Source of the DNA: Halovenus sp.
Lineage (GTDB): Archaea; Halobacteriota; Halobacteria; Halobacteriales; Haloarculaceae
Length of the DNA stretch: 11,911 bases
Reading direction: 5' to 3'
Assembly (NCBI GenBank): GCA_028275145.1
Contig: JAQCNG010000225.1
Coordinates: forward strand, 1 to 11,911
In this document: piece after piece, positions 4,681-11,846 of the stretch
Layout of the letters: each line of letters starts with the position of its first letter
Numbering within the stretch: the first letter of the stretch is position 1
Made by a program: the position numbers and the translations under genes
The notes under the pieces: generated by a model
Told to the model about the DNA's origin: nothing
Databases searched by the model: none
What the model saw: the letters and a program-made list of their open reading frames with translations, nothing else

Positions 4681-4700
4681 CCGGATTCACCCGGATTCAC
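4681..4700 (-). repeat. Tandem 10-bp repeat at a stop codon
   Basis: The unit CCGGATTCAC occurs twice back to back on the plus strand (GTGAATCCGG on the minus strand). It spans the last codons and the TGA stop of the membrane winged-helix gene: the TGA lies in one copy, and the equivalent bases of the other copy are read in another frame. Gain or loss of one 10-bp unit by slippage would move the stop and change the C-terminal tail. Confidence 0.7.
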
Positions 4701-5847
4701 CCCCGCTCTCGTCGCCCGACTCGTAGCCCAGCCCGGTCCCCGGCAGCGCGAGGACGTTGTTCCGCCCGAGCCGGTAGACCTCTATCCGGTTGCTCTCGCG
4801 CAGGTCCGACACCACCTCGCTCGTTTTCGTCTCCGACCAGTCGAGTGTCTGGACGACATCCTGCTGTTTGACCCGCCCCCCTTTCTCCTCGAGCAGCGCC
4901 AGCACGCGCTCCTCGTTGCTCAGCAGTTCCTCGGGAGGTTCGCTGCCAGCCGACTCTCCCGCCTCGGACTCCGGTGCTCCCTCGCCGGCCGCAGATTCCC
5001 CGGGCGCGGCTGTTGTCTCTGCCGGCGCGTCCTTGTCGTCCTCGCTCTCGTCTGCGCTCCGGCGGCGACGCAGTGCGAGAGCCCCGGTCCCGACCAGTCC
5101 GGCGAACACGAACAGTGCAACACCGAGCGTCAGGAGCACGTCGTTACTCGAGATGCTCCAGACGAGCTCCGGGCCAAACGAGAGCGACTCCGACTCCAGC
5201 ACCACCGTCGGCTCTCCGGGGGCGAACTCGAGTGGCCCGTCCCAGACAACGGCGGTGTCCCGGCCGTCGTCGGGTTCGGGTGACGCCTCCGCAAGCGTCG
5301 CGTTTGCCGGCCAACTCATCAGCAGCGTCGTCTTGTTGTCCAGGAACAGTCCGTCCAGCGCATCGCCGGCACGCAGTGTCTCCTTTGTCTCGGCGAACCC
5401 GTACCACCGGAACTCGAAGACGACGATACCGTACTCCTGGGGGAGTTGCTCGCGCTCTGCGCTCACCGAGATGTTCTCGACGACCATCACACGGCCCGTG
5501 TCCTGTTCGGCTGTGGTCGCTGTTGCACGTATGCCCTCGGTGAAGTTCGCGCGGAACGCCTTTGAGTCTGCCTCGATCCGGTCACGTGTCCGTTCGAACC
5601 CCTCGGTTGCGGCCTCGTCGTCGAGCCTGATGCGAGACTCGATGCGCCACCTTGCCGACCCGTCCGACTGGAGTCCGATTTCCATCACGACCTGGTCGGC
5701 TCCGTCCACCTGTCCCAGGAGGCTATCCTGCCCGCCCTCGGTTTCGCTGTTGGCCCTATCCGGCGCTGTGCCGGCCGCCAGAGCCCCGGATGTCACGACG
5801 AAACAGCACAGAAACACGACAACCGCCGCCAGGGACCGTGCCGTCAT
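4687..5847 (-). CDS. Membrane-bound winged-helix regulator with extracytoplasmic domain
   Basis: This 386-aa protein has four parts. An N-terminal signal peptide (about residues 1-25, ending ALAAG) precedes an extracytoplasmic beta-rich domain (about 40-230). That domain has four N-x-S/T sequons (Asn101, Asn125, Asn171, Asn182), possible N-glycosylation sites. One transmembrane helix (about 236-259) is followed by an RRRR stop-transfer motif. The cytoplasmic part is a disordered Glu/Ala/Pro linker (264-307) and a winged helix-turn-helix domain (308-370: NEERVLALLEEKGG, VKQQDVVQTLDWSETKTSEVV, then NRIEVYRLGRNNVLAL). The fold order matches predicted haloarchaeal membrane-associated transcriptional regulators (COG2512-like; I recall such C- and N-terminal regions being labelled DUF7343/DUF7345 but cannot confirm that). 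The role would be to sense an extracellular or envelope signal and pass it directly to DNA. The target is unknown. ATG at 5847 with a TATA-like box about 32 bases upstream. Confidence 0.85.
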   Translation of the reverse strand: MTARSLAAVVVFLCCFVVTSGALAAGTAPDRANSETEGGQDSLLGQVDGADQVVMEIGLQSDGSARWRIESRIRLDDEAATEGFERTRDRIEADSKAFRANFTEGIRATATTAEQDTGRVMVVENISVSAEREQLPQEYGIVVFEFRWYGFAETKETLRAGDALDGLFLDNKTTLLMSWPANATLAEASPEPDDGRDTAVVWDGPLEFAPGEPTVVLESESLSFGPELVWSISSNDVLLTLGVALFVFAGLVGTGALALRRRRSADESEDDKDAPAETTAAPGESAAGEGAPESEAGESAGSEPPEELLSNEERVLALLEEKGGRVKQQDVVQTLDWSETKTSEVVSDLRESNRIEVYRLGRNNVLALPGTGLGYESGDESGGESG

Positions 5848-5875
5848 CGTGTAGATTGGTTTCCTACGCGACTAC

Positions 5876-5882
5876 TAATATC
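5876..5882 (-). promoter_or_regulatory. TATA-like box of the membrane regulator gene
   Basis: Minus-strand GATATTA is centred about 32 bases before the ATG at 5847, so the mRNA leader would be only a few bases long. This separates the gene from the noncoding RNA candidate upstream, which then need not be its leader. Confidence 0.55.
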
Positions 5883-6020
5883 TTTGTCTGTCCGATAGGT
5901 TGTTCGGGCCAGCGGCTGCTCTCTGTGCGAGATGCGGTATGAATGGGTCCCACAACGAACGCGGGTACTGCACCGAACGGGAGACGTTGTCCCTGGTCCA
6001 CACGGCCGGTGACAGCTTTC

Positions 6021-6216
6021 GGCGGGCTCTCACCGCCCTCGTCGACTCGCCTGGCTTTGCCCGGGTTTACACCGGGTCTTGCCGATGTCGGGGGGTCGGT
6101 GGAGTTCGCACGCGTCCCGCAAGGGAGTTGTGCTCGTCCGCGACTCTCGGTCGGCGATAGCCGGACTCTCGCCGGCGTTGCCGTCACGAACCGACCTCAG
6201 CCGGGCTTTCACCGGC
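6021..6216 (-). other. Four matching GNRA-tetraloop hairpins in the RNA candidate
   Basis: On the minus strand the hairpins are 6216-6200 (GCCGG-TGAAAGC-CCGGC), 6176-6160 (GCCGG-CGAGAGT-CCGGC), 6076-6060 (CCCGG-TGTAAAC-CCGGG) and 6037-6021 (GGCGG-TGAGAGC-CCGCC). Each is a 5-bp GC stem, a closing pair (U-G, C-G, U-A, U-G), a GNRA loop (GAAA, GAGA, GUAA, GAGA) and one bulged pyrimidine on the 3' side. They form two pairs, spaced 40 and 39 nt within a pair and about 140 nt between pairs, which hints at a duplicated module. Confidence 0.75.
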
Positions 6217-6273
6217 GTGCCGTCGTATTCCCGAACCCCGCTTGCGCGTGGTCCGGTAGTTGGCCTTGCTCCA

Positions 6274-6291
6274 CCACCGCCGCGGCGGTGG
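6274..6291. repeat. Perfect 18-bp palindrome
   Basis: CCACCGCCGCGGCGGTGG is its own reverse complement. It lies inside the RNA candidate between the CCAG/CTGG helix and the GCAA-capped helix. In RNA it would be a long GC hairpin needing a few central bases for the loop, or a dimerisation site; as DNA it could be a protein-binding site. Confidence 0.8.
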
Positions 6292-6458
6292 CGCACTGGA
6301 CCAGTTCGGTTCTCCTTCGGGACCTGGGCCTCCACATCCTCCCAGATGTGTCGGCGTCGGCCCCCATTCCGGATCATCTCGACTGTCGCCGATCCGACCC
6401 GGAACGTTCGTGTGCGCCCTCGTCCGCTGTGGGGATTTCGAGATTGTAGCGGTAGGAT

Positions 6459-6470
6459 AATAAAAATTTC
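6459..6470 (-). promoter_or_regulatory. BRE/TATA promoter of the noncoding RNA candidate
   Basis: Minus-strand GAAATTTTTATT is the most A/T-rich stretch in the window. Its layout, a purine-rich BRE-like GCGAAA followed by a TATA-like TTTTTATT, is typical of strong archaeal promoters. The expected start 25-27 bases downstream falls on the purines near 6439-6436, just ahead of the 5' strand of the closing helix. No credible ORF begins downstream. Confidence 0.65.
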
Positions 6471-6503
6471 GCTCAAACACGTCTTTCACTCCCGATGGTA
6501 GAA

Positions 6504-6518
6504 ACCCGGCGGCCGGGT
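6504..6518 (-). terminator. Possible terminator hairpin after the HerA-like gene
   Basis: Minus-strand ACCCGG-CCG-CCGGGT, a 6-bp stem with a 3-nt loop followed by TTTC, lies about 14 bases after the stop codon of the HerA-like gene. Together with the separate promoter at 6459-6470 it would insulate the RNA candidate from herA-like transcription. Archaeal terminators usually rely on longer T runs, so this is tentative. Confidence 0.4.
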
Positions 6519-6531
6519 GTCGGGGACTGGC

Positions 6532-7587
6532 TCAGTCGCTCGCGACACTGTCGCTGGCGCGCGGGCTGTCACCTCCGTGTGGTGTCGCCCGCCGGCGGAC
6601 CAGCGCGGTGTGGACGGTCTCTGTGGCGTCGTCGACGACCAGCACCTCTCCGGGTTCAGTCGGCATCCGCTCGGTCAGCGAGCCCTCCATGTATGTCGGC
6701 CGGGCCGCCCGGAGCGCCTCGATATCTTCGCGGGCGGTGAGCCGGTGGGTACAGAGCAGGTCCGACTGCGAGACGCCGGCCGCGGGTATCGCCCCCGGAC
6801 GCTGGGTGGCGAGTCCGAGGCTGACACCCGGCGCTCGCCCGCGCGTAAGAATCCGGTTCAGTGTCGCTCCCGCGACACCCCCGAAGAAGGTGTGTGCCTC
6901 GTCGACCAGGAGCCAGGGGAGTCGGTCGAGGTCACCGGTCACCCGGGACCGGTACAGCCCCTCTCCAACGGCACGCGCCACGGCGTTCATCGGCGCGTCC
7001 GCGAGTCCCGAGAGGTCGAGCACGGTCACCCGGCCGCTCCCGAGTCTCGTCGCGTCGAGGCCGTCGGCTCCGAACACCCCCCACGACGCGGCGAGCGCGA
7101 GGTGGTTGTCGGCCGCGCGTCTGTCCGGTCCCGGAGCGTCGGTGGCAGCGATTGCCCGGCGCATGCCCGGCAGCGAGTCCACCTCGCGGGCGGCCTGCCA
7201 GACGAGTCCACCGGGACCGCCTCCGGGGTCGAGTCCGACGAGCGCACACCACGAGCGGGGGTCGAGCGCACCGGGGTCGACCCGCGGCGTGGCGACCACC
7301 TCGGCGGGAACGGGTTCGCCGTCCGCGGGGTCGTCGAGGGTGCTGAACACACCCATCGGGTCGACCACCACCGGCGCGACCCCCGGCGTCCGGGCGAGTG
7401 CCTCGGCGACCACCCCGAGCGTGTAGGATTTCCCGTAGCCGCGCTTGCCCACCACCAGCATCGCGTGTGGCCCGTCGAGGTCGAGATACAGTGGTGCGCC
7501 CGCGCTGCCGTCGAGCGCACGGTACGTGCCCAGTTGTCCCGTCGGCCCCGCTCCCGGCCCCTCCTCGCGCCCGATGACGAAACTCAT
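6532..7587 (-). CDS. HerA/DUF87-like P-loop ATPase
   Basis: This 351-aa ATPase belongs to the HerA-FtsK branch. It has the Walker A motif GKRGYGKSYT (residues 47-56), a VVVDPMGVFS strand after it (73-82), Walker B LLVDEAHTF (226-234), a candidate arginine finger in ILTRGRAPG (246-254), and a sensor strand GLATQRPGAIP (258-268). The N terminus has a short beta segment like the HerA HAS-barrel remnant (YRALDGSAGAPLYLDL); the tail is disordered. Archaeal HerA works with NurA in DNA end resection. No nurA or Mre11/Rad50 gene is nearby, so this is probably one of the several orphan DUF87 ATPases of haloarchaea, acting on DNA or at the membrane. ATG at 7587, divergent from purS with 91 bases between starts. 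A clear TATA box was not seen. Confidence 0.85.
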   Translation of the reverse strand: MSFVIGREEGPGAGPTGQLGTYRALDGSAGAPLYLDLDGPHAMLVVGKRGYGKSYTLGVVAEALARTPGVAPVVVDPMGVFSTLDDPADGEPVPAEVVATPRVDPGALDPRSWCALVGLDPGGGPGGLVWQAAREVDSLPGMRRAIAATDAPGPDRRAADNHLALAASWGVFGADGLDATRLGSGRVTVLDLSGLADAPMNAVARAVGEGLYRSRVTGDLDRLPWLLVDEAHTFFGGVAGATLNRILTRGRAPGVSLGLATQRPGAIPAAGVSQSDLLCTHRLTAREDIEALRAARPTYMEGSLTERMPTEPGEVLVVDDATETVHTALVRRRATPHGGDSPRASDSVASD

Positions 7588-7678: not shown

Positions 7679-7930
7679 ATGACCGGTTACACGGCGACCG
7701 TCACAGTTCGGCTCAAACAGGGCGTGCTCGACCCCGAGGCCGAGACCACACAGCGTGCCCTGGAGCGTCTGGGGTTCGAACTGACCGACCTGCGCGCGGC
7801 CGACGCGTTCGAGATTGAGTTGGAGGCCGACAGCGCCGGGCGGGCCCGCGAGCGCGCCACCGAGATGACCGAGCGACTGCTCGCGAACCCGACACTCCAC
7901 GACTACGAGGTCGAGGTCGACCAGCGATGA
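7679..7930 (+). CDS. purS: Phosphoribosylformylglycinamidine synthase subunit PurS
   Basis: PurS (83 aa, normal length) is the small structural subunit that bridges PurL and the glutaminase PurQ in FGAM synthase, the fourth step of purine synthesis. The family pattern is plain: a first strand YTATVTVRLKQGVLDPEAET, the helix TTQRALERLGFE, the strand residues AFEIELEAD, and the final MTERLLANPTLHDYEVEV. The ATG at 7679 gives the standard N terminus; an in-frame extension back to 7445 is the complement of the HerA-like gene. The stop overlaps the purQ start as ATGA. purL is not in the window. Upstream the region is only weakly A/T-rich, so the promoter is not certain. Confidence 0.96.
   Translation: MTGYTATVTVRLKQGVLDPEAETTQRALERLGFELTDLRAADAFEIELEADSAGRARERATEMTERLLANPTLHDYEVEVDQR
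7913..7916 (+). promoter_or_regulatory. Possible Shine-Dalgarno site of purQ
   Basis: GAGG within GAGGT lies ten bases before the purQ ATG at 7927, inside the end of purS. With the ATGA overlap it supports coupled translation of the two subunits. Confidence 0.45.
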
Positions 7931-8601
7931 CCGTCGCTGTCGTGCAGTTCGGCGGGAGCAACTGCGACCGCGACACGGTGCGTGCGCTGTCCGCGCTGGA
8001 TATCGACACGAGACTGGTCTGGCACGAGGACGGTCTCCCCGCCGAGACAACGGGTGTTGTCCTCCCCGGTGGCTTCTCGTACGGCGACTACCTCCGGGCG
8101 GGCGCGATGGCGGCCCGGTCGCCGGTGATGGACGAGGTGCGCGCGGCCGCCGAGTCGGGGACGCCGGTGCTCGGCATCTGCAACGGCGCACAGGTTGGCT
8201 GCGAGGCCTCCCTGACCCCCGGTGCGTTCACAGTCAACCAGAGCGCCCGCTTCCAGTGCGAGCACGTTCATCTGCGTGTCGAGAACGCCGACACTCTCTG
8301 GACCGCGGCGTACGACGCCGGCGACGTGTTGCGGTTCCCGATTGCCCACGGCGAGGGCCGGTTCGAGATTGCCGACGACCGCCTGGAGACACTCGCCGCG
8401 GAGAACCGCATCCTGTTCCGGTACTGTGACCCGGAGGGACGGGTCACCGAGGCGGCGAATCCGAACGGCTCCACCGGGGGCGTCGCCGGCATCGTCGGCG
8501 ACCACGACACCGTCGCTGTCATGATGCCACATCCCGAGCGGGTCTCACTACCCGATATCGGGCCGACCGACGGCCAGGGTGTGTTGCGCGCGTTCGCGTA
8601 G
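7927..8601 (+). CDS. purQ: Phosphoribosylformylglycinamidine synthase subunit PurQ (glutaminase)
   Basis: PurQ (224 aa, full length) is a class I glutamine amidotransferase that hydrolyses glutamine and channels ammonia to PurL in FGAM synthase. Motifs seen are the N-terminal VAVVQFGGSNCDRD (residues 3-16), the oxyanion strand VVLPGGFSYGDYLRAGAMA (44-62), the nucleophile elbow VLGICNGAQ with Cys85, the FPIAHGEGRF strand (137-146), and the catalytic MMPHPER with His202 and Glu204. The start overlaps the purS stop by four bases. It is convergent with a regulator gene; the 141-base gap between them (8602-8742) has no recognisable gene or tRNA. Confidence 0.97.
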   Translation: MTVAVVQFGGSNCDRDTVRALSALDIDTRLVWHEDGLPAETTGVVLPGGFSYGDYLRAGAMAARSPVMDEVRAAAESGTPVLGICNGAQVGCEASLTPGAFTVNQSARFQCEHVHLRVENADTLWTAAYDAGDVLRFPIAHGEGRFEIADDRLETLAAENRILFRYCDPEGRVTEAANPNGSTGGVAGIVGDHDTVAVMMPHPERVSLPDIGPTDGQGVLRAFA

Positions 8602-10647: not shown

Positions 10648-11217
10648 TCAGGCGTCCTCGACGCGCTTGCCTTCCGCCTGTGGCACCACGACGCGGTCGG
10701 CATTTTCCCACTCCCGGTCGAGTTCCCTCCCCTCGAAGAGGTGGTCGAGAAACACCGCGAGCGACGCCACCTCGGAGTGGGGCTGGTTCGTCACCGCCAC
10801 GTTCCAGTCGGCCGCCTCGTACACCTCGAACGCGACCTTCTCCGCGCCGACCACCACCAGCAGTGGCCGCTCGGTCTGCTCGCGCTCTGTCCCGCCTTTC
10901 GCGCTGTCCCGGAGCGCCGCCCGGATGTCGTCTTCGACCTCCTGCACCGGGAGTCCGTACATCGTGAGGTGGACCACCGTGCCCGGCCACGTCTCGAGCA
11001 GGTCTCCGGGGTCGTCGGTCGTCTCCACCGCGAACGGGCCGCCGAAGTGGTCCGTGACCGAGACGACGCTCTCACGCCGGTCGGCGGCCGCCCCGGCAAG
11101 CACGAGACGGTCGGCTCCGAGCGCGCGCGCCGTCAACCCGACGTGGGTGGTCATCCGCTCGTCACGGCCGGGCCGGTGGCCGAGTCGCAACACCGCAACC
11201 TCCGGGGTGTCCTCCAT
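10648..11217 (-). CDS. trm56: tRNA (cytidine(56)-2'-O)-methyltransferase aTrm56
   Basis: aTrm56 (189 aa) methylates the 2'-OH of C56 in the T loop of archaeal tRNAs, using SAM. It is a SPOUT-class dimer that works without a guide RNA. Signatures are VLRLGHRPGRDERMTTHVGL (residues 9-28, containing the catalytic arginine region), the ALGADRLVLAG strand (32-42), the trefoil-knot segments PLLVVVGAEKVAFEVYE (118-134), and NVAVTNQPHSEVASLAVFLD (139-158). The ATG at 11217 shares one base with the TGA stop of the upstream lipoprotein gene (TGATG). A GTG at 11220 is one codon upstream and is also possible. Coupling to a DsbA-like gene is curious, as the two have no known link. Confidence 0.95.
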   Translation of the reverse strand: MEDTPEVAVLRLGHRPGRDERMTTHVGLTARALGADRLVLAGAAADRRESVVSVTDHFGGPFAVETTDDPGDLLETWPGTVVHLTMYGLPVQEVEDDIRAALRDSAKGGTEREQTERPLLVVVGAEKVAFEVYEAADWNVAVTNQPHSEVASLAVFLDHLFEGRELDREWENADRVVVPQAEGKRVEDA

Positions 11218-11846
11218 CACTGCTCGGCCAGGGCCTGGTCGATCTCCGGTCCCAGATTGCTCCCGTCGACGGTGCTGCCGTCGATGACGAACGACGGGGT
11301 GCTGCTGACGCCGAGACTCTCGCCGCGCTGGATGTCCGCATCGACCTCGGAGTCGTGGGCCAGACTCTCGCCGGCCTCCGTGACGGCGGACGGTTCCTCG
11401 ACCCCGATACCCCCGGCAAGTTCACCGAACAACCCGGGGGTTTCTGTCCCCAGACGGCTCTGGTTGTCGAACACTGTCTTGACGAACGCCCAGAACGCCT
11501 CGTCGCCGGCCCGTTCGAGCACCTCCCGGGCGGCGTTTGCGGCCTGTCTCGCCGGGGGGCCAGTCACGACGAAATCCCGGTGTTCGTACCGGATGCGGCC
11601 GCTGTCGAGGTACTGGTTCCGGACGCTGGGGAACACGTTCTGCACGTAGTTCTGACAGGCCGGACAGCCCATGTCCTCGTACACCTCGAGTGTCACGTCG
11701 GCGTCGGGGTCACCCCGAACCGGCACGTTGTCAGCGCCGGATGCGCTACCGCCAAGACACCCGGCCAGTGCCACAGTTGCCCCCGCTCCGGCACCGAGTA
11801 ACACCCGTCTGCGCGTTGCCGTCCCTGGCGAGCCGTTTTCTGTCAT
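11217..11846 (-). CDS. DsbA-like thioredoxin-fold Tat lipoprotein
   Basis: The 209-aa precursor starts with a Tat signal (TRRRVLLGAGAGA, residues 11-23) ending in the lipobox LAGC with Cys30, so it should be exported folded and anchored by lipid outside the cell membrane, as is usual in haloarchaea. The mature part is a thioredoxin fold with a helical insertion, as in DsbA (thioredoxin_4 type). The strand VTLEVYEDMGCPAC contains the CPAC active site (Cys61, Cys64). HRDFVV and the helical stretch with AFWAFVKTVF follow, and the cis-proline loop is SSTPSFVID with Thr183-Pro184. It probably catalyses disulfide exchange in extracytoplasmic proteins. No DsbB-like partner is in view. The ATG at 11846 has a TATA-like box about 27 bases upstream, so the mRNA is probably leaderless and carries trm56 too. 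Confidence 0.93.
   Translation of the reverse strand: MTENGSPGTATRRRVLLGAGAGATVALAGCLGGSASGADNVPVRGDPDADVTLEVYEDMGCPACQNYVQNVFPSVRNQYLDSGRIRYEHRDFVVTGPPARQAANAAREVLERAGDEAFWAFVKTVFDNQSRLGTETPGLFGELAGGIGVEEPSAVTEAGESLAHDSEVDADIQRGESLGVSSTPSFVIDGSTVDGSNLGPEIDQALAEQ

Follow-up and report, generated by a model that had tools for sequence, protein, structure and literature searches.

A large structured RNA family of haloarchaea with a probable link to the RNase P-like protein HARP

Introduction

Large and intricately folded RNAs with genes of their own are known from bacteria and phages, OLE, GOLLD and ROOL among them, and archaeal RNase P RNA falls in a size range similar to that of the haloarchaeal RNA described here. 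This RNA shares with OLE, GOLLD and ROOL its large size, intricate fold and apparent own gene, and multimers are conceivable for it through the palindromic tips of one of its hairpins (P7); it differs from them in its archaeal hosts, its link to the protein HARP, and the lack of an Rfam match in the region or of a match in the phage and viral searches made. Like archaeal RNase P RNA (RF00373), it is associated with an RNase P-like protein, although the RF00373 model finds no match in the region and the distribution of the RNA is patchy.

HARP is a protein-only RNase P homologue of the PIN family whose role in archaea is unsettled; it co-occurs with Rnl3 (TIGR01209), a HARP-linked ligase with circularisation activity, and RNA clients, namely C/D box RNAs, have been proposed for both HARP and the ligase (Seshadri and Gopalan, mBio 2025, PMC12153264, in the portion of the article drawn on here). 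The observations presented below resemble that linkage: the two proteins are the same, and their occurrence is again patchy and strongest among halophilic archaea. However, whereas that portion of the account names no linked noncoding RNA of such a kind, a large RNA tracks HARP in the genomes considered here. Searches of an open-licence library listed no paper that describes such an RNA in its title or the opening of its abstract. We class the RNA as new, its link to HARP being probable but unproven.

Results

A noncoding gap contains a structured RNA gene

The stretch of DNA analyzed (the window, 11,911 nucleotides) corresponds to one entire contig, G000:C146, from a haloarchaeal assembly of 77% completeness. 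Within it, a gap at 5848–6531 separates a HerA-like gene, whose stop lies at 6532, from a membrane winged-helix gene, whose start lies at 5847; both are on the minus strand. The HerA-like gene is named for weak HerA matches, and the membrane winged-helix identity of the gene at 4687–5847 is our own reading of a sequence that has no NCBIfam match. A sequence-only reading of the window had proposed that this gap holds an undescribed structured RNA of about 490 nucleotides. From its homologues, its covariation, its lack of a coding pattern and the absence of Rfam matches, we conclude that positions 5949–6433 of the minus strand, from P1 to P1, are a structured RNA gene of about 485 nucleotides, the long form of a family whose reality we consider close to certain.

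The gap is indeed there; overlapping open reading frames lie within it, and they look fortuitous in the phase of their mismatches, their indels and their stops. When the window is compared with seven close relatives of 74–81% identity, mismatches are spread evenly over the three codon positions (31/35/35 for locus L072) and one-base indels are present, which together argue against a protein gene. Furthermore, over the 530 nucleotides compared, every frame is interrupted by a stop in the window and in three of the seven relatives. With no codon-phase substitution bias and no conserved open frame, a protein-coding gene was rejected.

The extensive minus-strand pairing that had been proposed is borne out by folding: the minus strand of 5940–6445 folds at −259.8 kcal/mol (z = −5.9), and none of 100 shuffled sequences folds as well. 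The plus strand of the same stretch has z = −3.3, likewise with none of 100 shuffles as good. A TATA-like box, TTTTTATTA (6466–6458, minus strand), lies 25 nucleotides upstream of P1, where a promoter had been noted, and its position is kept in part of the relatives: a TTTAT-like box occurs 38–52 nucleotides upstream of the P2 strand in 33 of 58 other loci compared with 6.4 in shuffles, a count made on the relatives with a recognizable P2 strand and with an interval chosen after the sequences had been seen. We infer transcription of a stand-alone, promoter-driven noncoding RNA.

The two flanking genes had also been suggested as a guide to homologous gaps in other haloarchaea, but they are not conserved neighbors: neither the HerA-like nor the membrane winged-helix gene is found beside the RNA in near relatives. 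Indeed, when the neighbors at 82 loci are clustered by sequence, they change frequently. A homologue (370 amino acids, cluster c90) of the membrane winged-helix protein, whose gene is downstream of the RNA in the window, does lie upstream of the RNA at L147, in a genome of another family, and c90 stands beside the RNA in 2 of the 82 loci, possibly by chance. Elsewhere in the window, 10648–11220 (minus strand) and 7927–8601 (plus strand) are ordinary genes, for tRNA (cytidine(56)-2′-O)-methyltransferase and PurQ.

Homologues and distribution

A DNA search of 59 relatives gave matches in 17, of which seven are near full length (77–84% identity) while the more distant ones comprise the core only; one of the 17, a 39-nucleotide match in G002, was not confirmed by the later covariance model. 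Fifteen cores aligned with MAFFT, in an alignment not fitted to structure, yielded a consensus fold of 33 pairs, and both partners change in 18 of these. Of 293 Halobacteriales genomes, 79, from 36 of the 87 genera, contain the core according to a covariance model built from these 15 sequences (R1), probably a lower bound because 10 candidates were scored per genome; the homologues that the sequence-only reading had called for in related genomes are therefore at hand. A second model, built from 82 sequences (R2), found the same 79 genomes, an agreement that is not independent because R2 was built from the matches of R1. The window's own genome has a single match, and there are one or two per genome elsewhere.

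The RNA occurs in 11 families of the Halobacteriales and in two families outside the order. Among 246 genomes of the phylum, nine match and three of these nine lie outside the Halobacteriales: G323 (E = 1.6e-11), G332 (2.5e-9) and, weakly, G341 (2.9e-4). Inspection by eye shows in all three the core and the 3′ motif, preceded by an A+T-rich, TATA-like stretch. We guess that G323 and G332 are halophilic methanogens.

For the largest alignment (A3), the window was joined by 80 fetched regions, giving 82 matches, 80 of them distinct. R1 gave 83 places besides the window, 70 of which were fetched, and 11 regions came from the DNA search; the 13 places left out of A3 are in G193, G234, G262, G306, G220, G313, G062, G036 (twice), G246, G042 and G079 (twice). 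Each double match in G036 and G079 more likely reflects one RNA whose core carries an insertion, as in L013. A tandem arrangement is seen at L132 (G230), where two RNA cores lie 0.3 kb apart, at 5823–5963 and 6267–6406 of that locus.

Covariation supports the fold

In the 82-match alignment, 94.9% of pair cells are paired compared with 74.9% after shuffling, 28 of the 33 pairs change on both sides, and double changes number 499 against 138.8 in shuffles; because this alignment was fitted to the model, it favors the structure. The covariation score is 0.535, as opposed to 0.182 when shuffled (reached in none of 500) and 0.07–0.09 for slid pairings. Thus the helices covary strongly, in favor of the sequence-only reading, by shuffle and slide controls used in place of R-scape, and the compensatory changes exceed both chance and the controls for relatedness, as is expected of a structured noncoding RNA.

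Additional helices close the RNA outside the first consensus. Pairing reaches 94.0% in P11 (GGAGA/UCUCC; 20 distinct rows) compared with 80.3% in shuffles, 93.7% in P10 (CUGGUCC/GGACCAG in the window; 57 rows) compared with 75.5%, 97.2% in P2 (21 rows) compared with 92.2%, and 98.2% in P2b (21 rows) compared with 81.9%; in each case the observed pairing was reached by none of 1000 shuffles, and slid pairings of P10 and P11 drop to 31–62%. P2, P10 and P11 were first spotted by eye in the same sequences and counted afterwards, and the P2 count covers 73 relatives with a recognizable 5′ strand, the window not being among them. The two-pair "helix 4" (GG/CC) called by RNAalifold gave way to P11, where its GG is instead paired with the 3′ domain.

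Architecture of the RNA

The secondary structure that emerges from these comparisons is one in which P1 and P2 close a junction with P3, P4-P5-P6 and P11-P10, and P11-P10 in turn encloses P7, P8 and P9 (all features of the window are on the minus strand). In P1, the 5′ strand at 6417–6433 pairs with the 3′ strand at 5965–5949 with one mismatch (predicted duplex energy −28.5 kcal/mol), and in 39 of 58 other loci the 5′ strand pairs better with the 3′ strand of the same locus than with 95% or more of those from elsewhere. The complementarity of 6433–6428 with 5954–5949, part of the earlier proposal, belongs to this 17-position terminal helix. The companion pairing of 6411–6406 with 5960–5955 is complementary as it was written; it is not backed by relatives, in which the 5′ strand instead pairs as P2. 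The 5′ strands of P2b (6415–6412) and P2 (6410–6405) together span 6405–6415, and the 3′ strands (CGUUCG and GUGC) span 5970–5979, P2 taking 5979–5974; both helices covary in relatives, and in the window they were paired by eye. P3 (6367–6404) is a hairpin that varies among relatives, assigned by eye and present in the predicted fold.

The P4-P5-P6 stem (6319–6364), which comprises helices 1–3 of alignments A2 and A3, is supported by covariation, as are the strands of P11 (GGAGA at 6311–6315, pairing with UCUCC at 5984–5980), those of P10 (CUGGUCC at 6298–6304, pairing with GGACCAG at 5999–5993) and the P8 hairpin with its GCAA tetraloop (6232–6255). Between P7 and P8 runs a highly conserved single strand, AAGGCCAACUAC (6256–6267), seen in alignments A2 and A3, and the search for the 3′ domain revealed a conserved internal-loop strand between P10 and P11, GGACAACG (5985–5992), which reads GUGGAAAACG in many relatives. 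With E up to 5 allowed, 86 of 87 loci match the conserved 3′ domain, which reads GUGGAAAACGUCUCCCGUCCGGGUCCAA in many members: L148 has no match, L208 matches weakly (2.2), and L205–L207 give 0.006–0.012. The 5′ strand, which reads GCGAGGACACACCGGACGAC in many members, could be recognized in most small forms; within the window's clade, a weak match in L077 was the only one.

Family members differ in P9, whose length, taken as the distance from the end of the core to the 3′ match, is bimodal: 8–45 nucleotides in small forms, where P9 is a short hairpin, and 81–222 in long ones. The window, at 220, has an extended P9 domain (6000–6228). This domain carries four hairpins of the form GG-YGNRANN-CC, each with a 7-nucleotide loop: a (6200–6216, loop UGAAAGC), b (6160–6176, CGAGAGU), c (6060–6076, UGUAAAC) and d (6021–6037, UGAGAGC). 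Over all loci, such hairpins number 68 in 44,357 nucleotides of RNA regions compared with 19 in 980,648 nucleotides outside, a density roughly 80-fold higher than that of the flanking DNA (examples besides the window are L072, L077 and L079).

P7 (6274–6291) is, by alignment and a survey of hairpins, an 18-nucleotide perfect palindrome with a self-complementary tip. Zero-loop palindromes through the tip, of at least 12 nucleotides, occur in 41 of 76 distinct sequences, with tips CATG (16), CCGG (13), CGCG (9) and CTAG (3). They may allow dimers through kissing loops, and the P7 tip of the window is a possible site of this kind. Several other P7 hairpins carry GNRA or UNCG-type loops, and such ordinary loops in many lineages weaken the idea of a universal homodimer.

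The GUYCNA stretch that follows P2 at the 3′ end of many relatives resembles a tRNA T-loop, and in L093 a T-arm-like hairpin (CCGAG UUCAAUU CUCGG) can be drawn by eye as an alternative to P2. Mimicry of tRNA through such a 3′ end was considered and set aside, as the stem overlaps P2.

Comparison with known families

That the RNA resembles neither RNase P RNA, SRP RNA nor a group II intron had been noted from the sequence, and a search of the window with Rfam 15 agrees: the RNA region has no match up to E = 10, so that these three, known riboswitches and the other Rfam 15 families were all set aside for want of a covariance-model match. At L205–L207, outside the order, the same threshold leaves a single overlap, with a microRNA family on the strand opposite to the RNA of L207, and its score is at chance level (E = 3.2; 20.9 bits against a gathering score of 78). 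RF00373 itself, at E up to 10, matches neither the window nor L205–L207. A viral origin was looked for in two exact-pattern scans of viral contigs and in one phage search, none of which returned a match.

Co-occurrence of the RNA with HARP and Rnl3

The most frequent neighbor of the RNA, present in 25 of the 82 loci, is a protein of 207–234 amino acids (one member, at L149, was called as a longer, 635-residue frame) encoded on the strand opposite to the RNA, either upstream or downstream. The protein encoded at L081 belongs to TIGR03875 ("RNA ligase partner"), which we equate with HARP on the basis of its linkage to the ligase, its distribution and the match given by a Haloferax volcanii control. 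On this assignment, 117 of the 293 Halobacteriales genomes contain HARP: 74 have both the RNA and HARP, five the RNA only, 43 HARP only and 171 neither (Fisher p = 3e-32, phylogeny ignored), so that HARP is found in 74 of 79 genomes with the RNA compared with 43 of 214 others. By genus, 34 of 36 with the RNA hold HARP compared with 17 of 51 others (34, 2, 17 and 34; p = 2.6e-9), a genus being scored as holding both even when the two are in different genomes; this softens, and does not remove, the problem that genomes are non-independent samples. Outside the order, all three genomes with the RNA have HARP, which is present in 13 of the 40 genomes tested there.

Rnl3, scored in the same 293 genomes, is present in 83, always with HARP. 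The 117 HARP genomes divide into 40 with both the RNA and Rnl3, 34 with the RNA alone, 43 with Rnl3 alone and none with neither; that is, all 34 HARP genomes that lack Rnl3 have the RNA, and these belong to 11 genera of six families. The form of the RNA also varies with the ligase, as Rnl3 is present in 18 of 20 HARP genomes whose RNAs bear the GGYGNRANNCC motif compared with 16 of 43 whose RNAs are free of it.

Proximity also varies with the ligase. In 24 genomes, from seven genera of five families and in more than one arrangement, the starts of the RNA and HARP matches are at most 2.1 kb apart, and these comprise 22 of the 34 genomes without Rnl3 compared with 2 of the 40 with it. Contiguous triple loci are found in G046 (RNA, HARP, Rnl3, in that order) and G108 (HARP, Rnl3, RNA). 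The Rnl3 gene of the former (L091; G046:C74:8871-9866) has one TAG stop in frame and is possibly decaying or misassembled. In Halorussus halophilus ZS-3 and H. caseinilyticus DT72, the RNA lies, unannotated in the gene table, next to an "RNA ligase partner protein" on plasmids; these strains are G112 and G143 of the 293-genome sample and hence not extra evidence. The three non-Halorussus HARP plasmids among the five named have no convincing RNA within 6 kb of HARP (best E = 0.015). An "RNA ligase" gene lies next to HARP on the plasmids of Natrinema and Halocatena, and no ligase is shown there on the plasmid of Salinigranum.

The association has exceptions. HARP is not within 10 kb of the RNA in 54 of the 79 RNA genomes, some of whose assemblies are fragmented, and 46 loci around HARP or Rnl3 gave no RNA match (best E = 0.16), whether or not the genome has the RNA at a distant site. 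A repeat search of 40 of the 43 HARP genomes without the RNA, in which the number of candidates scored was raised from 10 to 79, gave one match, a weak one (G203, 7.6e-6). Conversely, the RNA occurs without HARP in G019 and G067 (both 99% complete), G116 (89%), G000 (77%) and G052 (63%). G000 is the window's own genome, in which TIGR03875 has no match, and within its genus the RNA is found in G000, G003, G006, G007, G009 and G017 (63–88% complete), none with HARP, whereas HARP is found in G010, G012 and G013, none with the RNA. Over the 59 nearest relatives, RNA and HARP are weakly associated (12, 9, 11 and 27; p = 0.03). The window thus carries the long form of the RNA in a lineage where the link to HARP is not seen, and there the long form seems either to have outlived HARP or never to have needed it.

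Discussion

The sequence-only reading had left the partner of this RNA open; co-occurrence and adjacency indicate that it is probably HARP, and we consider a functional link between the two to be likely. We propose that HARP, Rnl3 and the RNA form a processing module. The mechanism that we rank first, at somewhat less than even odds, makes the RNA a dedicated client and partner in it. Following this proposal, P1 would bring the two ends of the RNA together; HARP would bind the closed RNA and trim its 5′ leader at P1, in the way that it trims a pre-tRNA at the acceptor stem; Rnl3, where present, would seal the juxtaposed ends into a circle; and the mature RNA, perhaps as a dimer formed through the palindromic tip of P7, would act through its conserved core. 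Taken as a whole, we would give about even odds to the explanation that best accommodates the data, a stand-alone RNA without an Rfam match that works with HARP as both client and partner.

It is also worth considering that the RNA may instead regulate HARP, acting as a decoy or inhibitor by which other RNAs are spared from the nuclease, in the manner of a toxin-antitoxin pair, with Rnl3 as an alternative safeguard that repairs the cuts. Such a regulator would account for the complete lack, among the 117 HARP genomes, of any in which Rnl3 and the RNA are both missing, and for the concentration of close RNA-HARP pairs in genomes that have lost Rnl3; two of the HARP-RNA pairs lie on megaplasmids, and a toxin-antitoxin idea for HARP and the ligase is raised, and doubted, in the portion of PMC12153264 drawn on here. 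However, HARP deletions are described in the literature, as excerpted here, as having no growth effect under the conditions tested, which says nothing on toxicity, and an antitoxin would be idle in the three genomes of 89–99% completeness, and in the window's genus, that have the RNA without HARP. We favor the role of client and partner, with the regulator, itself rather unlikely, not far behind. Somewhat less likely still is an independent RNA, a ribonucleoprotein or ribozyme of some other pathway (for example ribosome or tRNA maturation at high salt) that shares the lineages of HARP for ecological reasons. The pattern in the window's genus, the many RNA genomes with no HARP nearby, and the GNRA loops and conserved unpaired segments of a large, conserved core would all fit such an RNA, but shared ecology is hard to sustain in view of the proximity to HARP in several families, the triple loci and the presence of the RNA in every HARP genome without the ligase.

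Two further explanations carry little weight. Because the RNA is linked to an RNase P-like protein, and because RF00373 was not found in the 77% complete assembly that holds the window, one might suppose a divergent RNase P RNA; this is extremely improbable, as the RNA region has no RNase P match even at E = 10, and presence in only 79 of 293 genomes is too patchy for an essential RNA. In addition, all HARP-encoding archaeal genomes also code canonical RNase P components, according to the excerpted text of a review (PMC10941002). The frequent change of neighbors could likewise suggest a remnant of a mobile element such as a group II intron core or an IS605 omega RNA, and the GGUGARAGYCC hairpins resemble a hairpin of group IIC introns. 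Nonetheless, there is one match in the window's genome and one or two in others, no Rfam intron matches the RNA, and two exact-pattern scans found no viral contig, so that we give this origin hardly more credence.

That no HARP gene is found without either the RNA or Rnl3 in 117 genomes, and that the RNA lies near HARP in 22 of the 34 genomes without the ligase, invites a broader reading, to which we would assign an even chance: in halophilic archaea, HARP may be, rather than a solitary stand-in for RNase P, the protein of a nuclease-RNA system, with an old RNA as its client, guide or inhibitor. Co-inherited and often nearby, the RNA is a concrete natural partner of HARP to test, and it could explain how some HARP genomes manage without the ligase. 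More generally, it would add to the archaea a large structured RNA family that combines a deeply conserved core with modular expansions.
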